Positions 1,991-17,190 of a DNA stretch of 32,165 bases are shown in pieces (position 1 is the first letter of the stretch; the number at the start of each line of letters is the position of its first letter). Source of the stretch: Alphaproteobacteria bacterium. GTDB lineage: Bacteria; Pseudomonadota; Alphaproteobacteria; Rhizobiales; Hyphomicrobiaceae. Location: contig JAJRZC010000402.1 in assembly GCA_024275435.1 (NCBI GenBank), positions 1 through 32,165 on the forward strand, in the 5' to 3' direction. A program made the position numbers and the translations under genes. The notes beneath the pieces are model-generated. The model made no database searches and was not told where the DNA came from. It worked only from the letters and a program-made list of their open reading frames with translations.

Positions 1991-2548
1991 TCAAGCCATT
2001 GTCCGAGCTCTCAGGTGGCTGGCGAACAGCACCATAGTGATTGCACCGATTTCCAGAATCCAGTTCCAGCGCAGGCCAAGGATTTGGTCGTTGATGAATT
2101 GATCGAAATGATGGAATGAGGCTGCTCTCACGACAATAAATCCCAACAGAAGCGTGGTGCCGATAACGGCCAGCCATGTTGCGCTCGCACCATCTCTCAT
2201 CCATCTTCCCAGGGTGATTGCCAGGGCGAGGCAGACGCCAGCAATCACTATGATGAAAACAAGTTGTACAGCCCTGCGGCTCTCATACCAGCCATAAATA
2301 TGAGCAAGCACACGGCCCAGCTCGGTCATGGCCGACTGCAAGTCCAGTTGCTTGTTGATGCCCAGTGCCAAAAATAAAATTGCGATGCTCAACCAGATCT
2401 TGATTTCATTTTGCCTGGCTGGTGCTGATTTTTTCAGCGATCCGGTCAGCTGCCAGCAACTCAAGGATGCCAGCAGGTATAGTAGAACGGTCAACCAGCC
2501 CATGATTGTGGGGTCGCCTATGCCGGGTGACCAATTAAAGTGATTCAT
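1991..2548 (-). CDS. Unassigned multi-pass membrane protein
   Basis: I do not recognise a characterised family. A TTG at 2575 opens the frame, but the ATG at 2548 (MNHFNWSPG) gives a normal start with an AAAGG stretch upstream, leaving 185 residues. Five hydrophobic segments are visible at about 15-33, 51-68, 92-115, 122-142 and 160-178 (ATG numbering), so it is probably an inner-membrane protein with five spans. A conserved-looking GINKQLDLQ stretch follows the second span. It lies 51 bases downstream of the M48-like gene on the same strand, so the two may be co-transcribed. Function unknown. Confidence 0.65.
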   Translation of the reverse strand: MNHFNWSPGIGDPTIMGWLTVLLYLLASLSCWQLTGSLKKSAPARQNEIKIWLSIAILFLALGINKQLDLQSAMTELGRVLAHIYGWYESRRAVQLVFIIVIAGVCLALAITLGRWMRDGASATWLAVIGTTLLLGFIVVRAASFHHFDQFINDQILGLRWNWILEIGAITMVLFASHLRARTMA

Positions 2549-2599
2549 ATGAAACAGTTTTACCTTTAGCCACAAACGGTTCCGATATTGCTGTGAGGT

Positions 2600-3472
2600 T
2601 TACTGGGCCGGTTGAGTTTGGTGGCCTGTGTAGGGCGGGGGAGCCGTATGGGAGATCTGCTGTCCAAGCTCGCCTAAGCGGTGGGGGTAGTGATCGCGAG
2701 CAAAGCTCAGAAGTTCACGGTAGCGATGGACGAGAGGCGGGTGGGAAGAAAAAATCCGGACCAGGAAACCAAAGAAACCCTTGATATCTCTTTCCTGTCG
2801 GGCGATGCCCGTTAAACTTATCTGATGGGAACATTGAGCTCCCACACAGAGCTGATTCATTGCGCTTAATGCAGATTTGATATCACCACCTATGATGGCT
2901 AATCCGAGCCGGTCACCTGACAAAACCACCGCCCTTTCATAAGGATAGAGCAGTAAATTGAAAATCAGAAGCTTCTCTGAAGTGGAGATGAGCGCTTGGA
3001 GGATGGATAGACGGTAGCTTTTTGCACGCAAGGAGCCGATAAAGCGTGCAACGACCCATTTCGCTTCAATGAGTGAGACGTTCTGTTCCAGAAGACCCGT
3101 ATGAATAATTAAGATCTTGCGTTGGAAGAAGGGCATCAGCAGACAGTTGAAAGTGCCTTCTTCTATGACGAAGGTCTCAACGGGCTTTTCATATCCCAGA
3201 TCGTGTTTCACCTCTTCCACCAACCGATGCAGGCCTGGAAAACTGTGTTCATCCACACGTGCACTGTGGGCCAGAAACCAGGTCCTCATCAGTTCTTGCG
3301 AAAACCACACCAGGAAATAGGCAATTGCGAAAAATATCAAAACCAGACCGGCGGTACCGATTACAAGGCCAACCAACAGAAGCGTAATCGGTGCCAAGGC
3401 GACAAGCGCAAGAATGAAATGGCGTTGTTCCTTCGGGTGCAAAAGTAGTTTTAATTCCCGGTCCGAAATCAT
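2600..3472 (-). CDS. M48-peptidase-like membrane protein with lost zinc motif
   Basis: 290 residues. Two membrane spans at about 18-38 and 41-58 are followed by a domain with the layout of M48 (HtpX/Ste24-like) peptidases: a 'TFNCLLMPFFQRKILIIHTGLLE' type core at 107-129, a helix at 136-150, a 'SGDRLGL..GGD..SALSAMNQL' stretch at 185-208, and a C-terminal 'SSHPPLVHRYRELLSFA' at 242-258. Where active members have HExxH, this protein reads RFIGS (143-147), and the usual glutamate of the downstream EAD/ECD motif is replaced (SGD, 185-187). The zinc ligands and catalytic glutamate therefore appear absent and peptidase activity is unlikely; a binding or regulatory role is possible. A GGGGA lies 5 bases before the ATG. 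The open frame is intact, so this is not a decayed gene by frameshift. Confidence 0.75.
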   Translation of the reverse strand: MISDRELKLLLHPKEQRHFILALVALAPITLLLVGLVIGTAGLVLIFFAIAYFLVWFSQELMRTWFLAHSARVDEHSFPGLHRLVEEVKHDLGYEKPVETFVIEEGTFNCLLMPFFQRKILIIHTGLLEQNVSLIEAKWVVARFIGSLRAKSYRLSILQALISTSEKLLIFNLLLYPYERAVVLSGDRLGLAIIGGDIKSALSAMNQLCVGAQCSHQISLTGIARQERDIKGFFGFLVRIFSSHPPLVHRYRELLSFARDHYPHRLGELGQQISHTAPPPYTGHQTQPAQ

Positions 3473-16716: not shown

Positions 16717-17190
16717 ATGGCAAGAACTACTACTAAACGGAAGGCCGCTGCAAAGCGTCCAGCTGCTAAGAAAAAGGCAGCAACGAAGGCTAAGCGCAAA
16801 CCAGTTGCTCGTAAGACAACTGCTCGCAAGGCCGCTAAGAAGCCTGCTCGCAAGACTACGGCCCGTAAGGCCGCTAAGAAGCCTGCTCGCAAGACTACGG
16901 CACGCAAGGCTGCTAAGAAGCCTGCTCGCAAGACTACGGCACGCAAGGCTGCTAAGAAGCCTGCTCGTAAGACAACTGCTCGCAAGGCCGCTAAGAAGCC
17001 TGCTCGCAAGACTACGGCCCGTAAGGCCGCTAAGAAGCCTGCTCGCAAGACTACGGCACGCAAGGCTGCTAAGAAGCCTGCAGCTCGCAGATCCACAGCT
17101 CGCAAGGCTGCTAAGAAGCCTGCAGCTCGCAGGTCCACGGCTCGCAAGGCTGCTAAGAAGCCTGCTCGTCGGGCTCGGCGCGCCGCTTAA
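16717..17190 (+). CDS. Histone-H1-like Lys/Ala/Arg-rich DNA-binding protein
   Basis: 157 residues made almost only of Ala, Lys, Arg, Thr and Pro, strongly basic, with no globular domain. After a lead-in (MARTTTKRKAAAKRPAAKKK...) come seven copies of the 13-residue unit ARKTTARKAAKKP (16807-17079), two 14-residue variants AARRSTARKAAKKP (17080-17163) and a basic tail ARRARRAA. This composition and the KKPA repeats match bacterial H1-like proteins (HctB/AlgP-like/H1 C-terminal-tail type), which bind and compact DNA. The protein is probably disordered until it meets DNA. The frame is preferred over the overlapping open frames because of its start with a purine-rich leader, its composition and the terminator behind it. 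Confidence 0.88.
   Translation: MARTTTKRKAAAKRPAAKKKAATKAKRKPVARKTTARKAAKKPARKTTARKAAKKPARKTTARKAAKKPARKTTARKAAKKPARKTTARKAAKKPARKTTARKAAKKPARKTTARKAAKKPAARRSTARKAAKKPAARRSTARKAAKKPARRARRAA
16807..17163 (+). repeat. 39-bp coding tandem repeats with a duplicated 3-unit block
   Basis: Seven 39-bp units (16807, 16846, 16885, 16924, 16963, 17002, 17041) are followed by two 42-bp variants (17080, 17122). Units differ at only a few synonymous positions. Units 1-3 (16807-16923) are identical, base for base, to units 5-7 (16963-17079), and unit 4 equals unit 3. The array therefore grew by duplication of a multi-unit block as well as by single-unit steps, and its length is likely to vary between strains. 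Confidence 0.95.

Follow-up and report, generated by a model that had tools for sequence, protein, structure and literature searches.

The window, i.e., the whole stretch of 32,165 nucleotides analysed here, comes from an alphaproteobacterium of the family Hyphomicrobiaceae. At 2600..3472 of its reverse strand lies an ORF of 290 amino acids with an ATG start and no internal stop, an intact frame as the first-pass annotation had read it, which was recognized by Pfam, profile-profile comparison and tree as the gene of a non-peptidase M48 homologue (hereafter pseudo-M48) with an N-terminal hydrophobic part and an M48-type domain. Three genes that we take from their sequences to be odhA, odhB and lpdA lie upstream on the same strand, with 313 bases between lpdA and the pseudo-M48 gene. 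Downstream, an ORF at 1991..2575 (reverse strand; ORF search, hydrophobicity scan and tblastn) encodes a membrane protein, and its likely ATG, at 2548, is placed 51 bases past the pseudo-M48 gene. The first-pass annotation had given this protein five spans; a simple hydrophobicity scan shows three strong windows. The GC3 of the window copy (0.54) is ordinary in comparison with 13 other genes measured (0.41-0.63). A promoter scan returned 0 sites (shuffled sequences average 2.4), and no match for pseudo-M48 was found in PHROGs. Elsewhere in the window, positions 16717-17190 of the forward strand encode a lysine/alanine/arginine-rich repeat protein with KKPARKTTARKAA-type units, which looks histone-H1-like by eye.

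Several landmarks of the M48 layout can be located in the protein, all on the reverse strand. A Kyte-Doolittle scan gives a single merged hydrophobic stretch at residues 16-62 (3287..3427), which is long enough for two membrane spans and is read as such; in a number of relatives, among them L008 and L019, the same scan splits it into at least two windows. By alignment, N109 of the pair F108-N109 (3146..3151) corresponds to the Asn of the NA[FL] motif, and it is kept in all eight pseudo-M48 members with data as well as in seven of seven active relatives. Profile-profile comparison and alignment place RFIGS (residues 143-147, 3032..3046) where HE[LI]GH is expected, and PYERAVVLSGD (residues 177-187, 2912..2944) where the Glu ligand is replaced by V183. 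The C-terminal M48-type motif, FSSHPPLVHRYREL (residues 242-255, 2708..2749), was found by alignment, with P245 and R250 invariant in 9/9 pseudo members and 7/7 active relatives. An AlphaFold2 model of the protein, made from a 2-row alignment, has a pLDDT of 45.5. The M48 layout claimed by the first-pass annotation is thus borne out by a hydrophobic stretch sufficient for two spans and the presence of FSSHPPLVHRYREL, together with the kinship described below.

Kinship with M48 and loss of the metal site

The Pfam Peptidase_M48 profile matches residues 81-255 with 21.1 bits, barely above the gathering score of 20.3, and a Pfam M48 scan of the organism's own genome (E 1e-3) gave seven M48 places, the window ORF not among them; kinship with M48 therefore needed a stronger test. 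In a profile-profile comparison (hhalign), the clade of the window protein and four active M48 proteins were aligned over 234 columns with a probability of 99.7 and E 3.2e-25, gap-free across RFIGS/HELGH and RAVVLSGDR/RAREYTCDR, and a profile of the four active members alone retrieves the window protein at E 1.7e-23. At the level of sequence, Pfam and the profile comparisons together establish homology to M48 over the domain. No M48 structure was found by sequence in the PDB with the window protein or with the clade profile, and active relatives match the Ste24p and BepA entries weakly. The best score against the NCBIfam HtpX equivalog is 16.1 bits (cut-off 341), and a Pfam M48 match at E 0.01 is obtained for only five of the ten rows of the clade alignment (two of the ten stem from a single broken gene). 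Two of the seven own-genome matches share an identical stretch of 147 amino acids and look like one gene, which gives six M48 genes with HExxH.

The zinc-binding positions have been replaced throughout the clade. R143-F144 stands in place of His-Glu in all nine pseudo members, the second His position (residue 147) is occupied by Y in seven and S in two, and the position of the downstream Glu ligand (residue 183) by V in eight and I in one; at the corresponding positions, H-E, H and E are all kept in the seven near active relatives. With HExxH absent and the downstream Glu replaced in 9/9, the loss of the M48 metal site is shown at the level of sequence for the entire clade. Neither an HE..H nor an H...H pair occurs in the compared stretches of any of the nine (the C-terminal 155 amino acids only in the case of G497), and HE..H is found in 7/7 near active relatives and 5/5 HtpX-type rows, rows that had been cut out with such a pattern: the active rows were extracted by a HExxH-type pattern from loci chosen earlier by profile searches without it. 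Around the replaced positions, G146 is invariant in 9/9 pseudo members and common to the seven active relatives, and Y178, R180 and D187, the Asp retained four residues after V183, are likewise common to both groups. On the other hand, every clade member has W139, E179 and R239, positions at which all seven active relatives differ.

In a MAG contig of another genome (G090), the VARFIGSLRAKSYRLSI stretch is identical in a protein of 72% overall identity, which makes a base error in this segment very unlikely. The two central claims of the first-pass annotation, that RFIGS takes the place of HExxH and that the downstream glutamate is missing, were therefore upheld by the gap-free alignment of residues 143-147 (3032-3046) to HELGH and of V183 to Glu (E 3.2e-25). 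HExxH, whose presence in close homologues it had proposed to check, is absent from all eight relatives grouping with the window protein, and both refutations it had named were looked at: no HExxH occurs elsewhere in the compared stretches, and a sequencing error is improbable for the reason given above.

Distribution and maintenance of the clade

The clade has nine members (the window copy, L008, L019, L020, L028, L029, L030, L031 and L017). Among the eight relatives, one belongs to a Hyphomicrobiales MAG (G090 and MAG contig JANQOC010000058.1 carry the same gene, which was counted once), six belong to Azospirillaceae, with L020 and L028 near-identical (97.5%), and one, frame-broken, comes from another alphaproteobacterial order. 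The frame break splits the latter copy, that of G497, into L017 and L018 and may be an assembly error or a real lesion. At least one member is hidden by its name: L019:4974-5888 (WP_193353759.1), which has no HExxH, is called "M48 family metallopeptidase" by RefSeq.

When 100 related genomes were searched with the single sequence (E 1e-3), six had matches, namely the own genome, G090 (72% identity), G021, G058, G013 and G096; the matches of the last four, as well as the second match of the own genome, are M48 proteins with HExxH. Profile searches, whose counts represent samples at given cut-offs and not a census, had hits in 2/397 genomes of the order at 1e-10 (G000, G090), 2/385 of the class at 1e-6 (G000, G497), 1/43 of the order of G497 at 1e-8, and 4/82 of the order of G488 at 1e-8 (3/45 in the genus of G488 and one in another). 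G488, an Azospirillum-like genome, had been selected through a marker protein whose A. lipoferum counterpart is 92% identical. At the level of the phylum (1e-8), 5/349 genomes were matched, G000 alone with the pseudo type and four with active proteins carrying HE[LI]GH. A search of the class with the active profile (1e-15) matched 4/372, i.e., the window protein itself and three active proteins. Plasmid records contain two Azospirillum copies of pseudo-M48; a Persicobacter plasmid (CP012861.1, 537236-537886) has a weak match to the A. lipoferum protein (22.8%, E 3e-6). The distribution of pseudo-M48 is sporadic.

With five HtpX-type rows as the root of the tree, the nine pseudo members (G497 by its C-terminal part of 155 amino acids only) form one branch with support of 100/99 and a stem of 1.31 changes per column, adjoined by the seven active relatives with support of 88/77 of their own; program warnings for this tree concerned two long rows and the meeting of long branches, those of HtpX and the pseudo group. 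When motif columns and HtpX rows are both left out, the pseudo and active groups are split at 100/100, in an unrooted tree. No intermediate between the active and pseudo forms was found among the relatives searched.

Nei-Gojobori dN/dS is 0.036 for L020/L028 and 0.09 for L031/L017 (dS 1.5, 155 codons). In other pairs, dS is saturated or nearly so (pN 0.19 for L019/L029 and 0.11 for L020/L030), including window/L008 (pN 0.21, pS 0.84), so that no dN/dS is available for the window gene itself. Judged by these ratios, purifying selection is acting in those pairs for which a ratio is available. The fixed replacement in nine grouped members and the low dN/dS in two usable pairs indicate a maintained and apparently old non-peptidase branch, in agreement with the earlier proposal that the loss was selected and does not represent decay. 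Moreover, the replacement is shared by relatives from other environmental bacteria, which makes the lost cutting activity look both old and preserved.

Genomic neighbours in other bacteria

The neighbours in the window, which the first-pass annotation had considered as a context for the protein, were not found again at the other loci. A tblastn search (E 1e-3) of these eight loci, each 9 to 14 kb long, gave no match for either lpdA or the downstream membrane protein. The downstream protein, whose sole other match among 18 genomes is in G003 (57%), beside other genes, is thus probably not a partner. In G090, the contig has only 323 bases ahead of the start codon, which show no lpdA tail and blastn similarity of at most 9 bases, so that an lpdA gene might still lie further upstream; what we take to be an aldolase-like gene lies downstream of pseudo-M48, with presumed transporter-like genes further on. 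Neither pairing is therefore supported, and no partner emerged in the window.

In Azospirillum, all five loci (L019, L020, L032, L033, L034) have pseudo-M48 beside suf genes, and in A. lipoferum an IS630-type transposase gene sits between them. The GC3 of these copies is 0.38-0.45 vs about 0.75-0.96 for most neighbours, and G488 lacks the gene, according to both the profile search of its genome and the 8 kb examined at its suf locus. Distribution and composition suggest that pseudo-M48 is an acquired accessory gene in Azospirillum.

A different arrangement occurs in G1190 and G497, which belong to different families. Here pseudo-M48 is head-to-head with the gene of a fusion protein of TIR_2 plus FGE-sulfatase (L035:7681-8973, forward strand; L036:5033-6328, reverse strand). 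The two TIR-FGE proteins are 69% identical, and both pseudo-M48 proteins are extended at the C-terminus and end similarly. It is possible that the two genes form a module. An FGE gene near the active M48 gene of G950 was also considered as a link and was taken as a coincidence, since this genome has ten FGE-type matches.

The foremost alternative to a general binding role starts from this pair: a TIR-FGE conflict module resembling a defence system, in which the TIR protein would have the pseudo-protease as its sensor or anchor in the membrane or as a decoy partner, and the window copy would be an orphan or associated with another effector. The divergent pairing in two families despite differing outer flanks, the sporadic distribution of pseudo-M48 and the deviating GC3 in Azospirillum are consistent with it, and FGE, TIR and inactive peptidases are all described in bacterial conflict systems in the available parts of PMC7159879 and PMC10907252. 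However, the sample is small, comprising two pairs whose pseudo-M48 genes are sisters, and the TIR part is matched in only 2 of seven pseudo-M48-bearing genomes (E 1e-10); at the same threshold, the match is confined to the FGE part in G000 and three Azospirillum genomes, and there is none in G090. Furthermore, 0/72,556 plasmid records reach 80% coverage of the TIR-FGE protein, the pseudo-M48 copies of the window, L035 and A. lipoferum match nothing in PADLOC at E 0.01, and the GC3 of the window copy is ordinary. Such a module is thus considered unlikely as an explanation of the clade. Slightly more doubtful still is a mobile two-gene version, in which the zinc-free M48 membrane protein would sense or hold a peptide signal and control the head-to-head TIR-FGE effector, the window and Azospirillum copies being derivatives with a changed partner.

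Possible role and comparison with known proteins

The window protein is rather likely to be a paralogue of M48 proteases in the inner membrane whose zinc site is lost and whose role is to bind a peptide or partner instead of cutting it. The M48 groove, in which N109 is kept, may hold a peptide or a part of a membrane protein, and the bound state would regulate or tether a partner at the membrane. The scaffold or sensor role suggested in the first-pass annotation is thus a conjecture, though a reasonable one. In thermolysin-like enzymes, the Asp corresponding to D187 touches the first zinc His; on this basis, R143, located at the position of that His, might pair with the retained D187, so that the core would be rebuilt without metal.

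Hydrolysis by another metal site or a different chemistry is improbable. Such activity could draw on the invariant polar residues, kept or new (H12, E104, N109, R143, E179, D187 and R239), but any H...H pair and any invariant Cys are missing, and H12, the only invariant His of the clade, precedes the hydrophobic stretch. A decaying pseudogene, to which the frame shift in the G497 copy might point, can practically be dismissed in view of the open frames of the other eight members, the motif fixed in 9/9 and dN/dS well under 1 in two usable pairs. Chance resemblance to M48 would accord with a Pfam score just 0.8 bits above its cut-off, the missing PDB match and the own-genome scan, and is equally negligible given the profile-profile and retrieval E values.

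Pseudo-M48 can be compared with several known groups. Nearest in the tree are unnamed active M48 proteins with HE[LI]GH and the downstream Glu (L024-L027, L057-L059), which have the same domain order, an N-terminal hydrophobic part (in rows reaching it) and the same residues at N109, G146, Y178, R180, D187, L208, G211, Q226, P245 and R250. Unlike the clade, they keep all four catalytic/zinc residues (7/7), and several are extended at the C-terminus by a part that includes another hydrophobic stretch. In L024, L026, L027 and L058, this stretch appears in part pilin-like. HtpX, Ste24 and BepA are active zinc proteases, the former two membrane-attached; the window protein has in common with them the HPP-type C-terminal motif and would be expected to have their fold, and neither it nor the clade matches their PDB entries by sequence. 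iRhoms and FtsHi are likewise membrane protease relatives kept after losing catalysis, but they belong to other families and their functions are partly known.

For bacterial conflict systems, catalytically dead peptidase domains have been proposed to be peptide-binding or dominant-negative, and the cases named in the available text are trypsin and caspase domains, rarely metallopeptidases, with M48 unnamed (PMC7159879). As far as their accessible parts extend, M48 is mentioned in neither PMC7159879 nor PMC10907252, and M48, Ste24, HtpX and OMA1 occur 0 times in a review of pseudopeptidases (PMC11266112). A limited literature search, covering some sources in part, found no description of a conserved inactive M48 clade, and the clade may already be described.

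These findings suggest that one of the major families of membrane proteases has a dead, conserved branch in bacteria, concealed in at least one record behind the annotation of a metallopeptidase. If the binding reading is true, the branch would provide an iRhom-like case in M48 and a clean way of testing what the M48 scaffold can do once catalysis is gone. Moreover, the TIR-FGE neighbour makes one possible role of these proteins directly testable.
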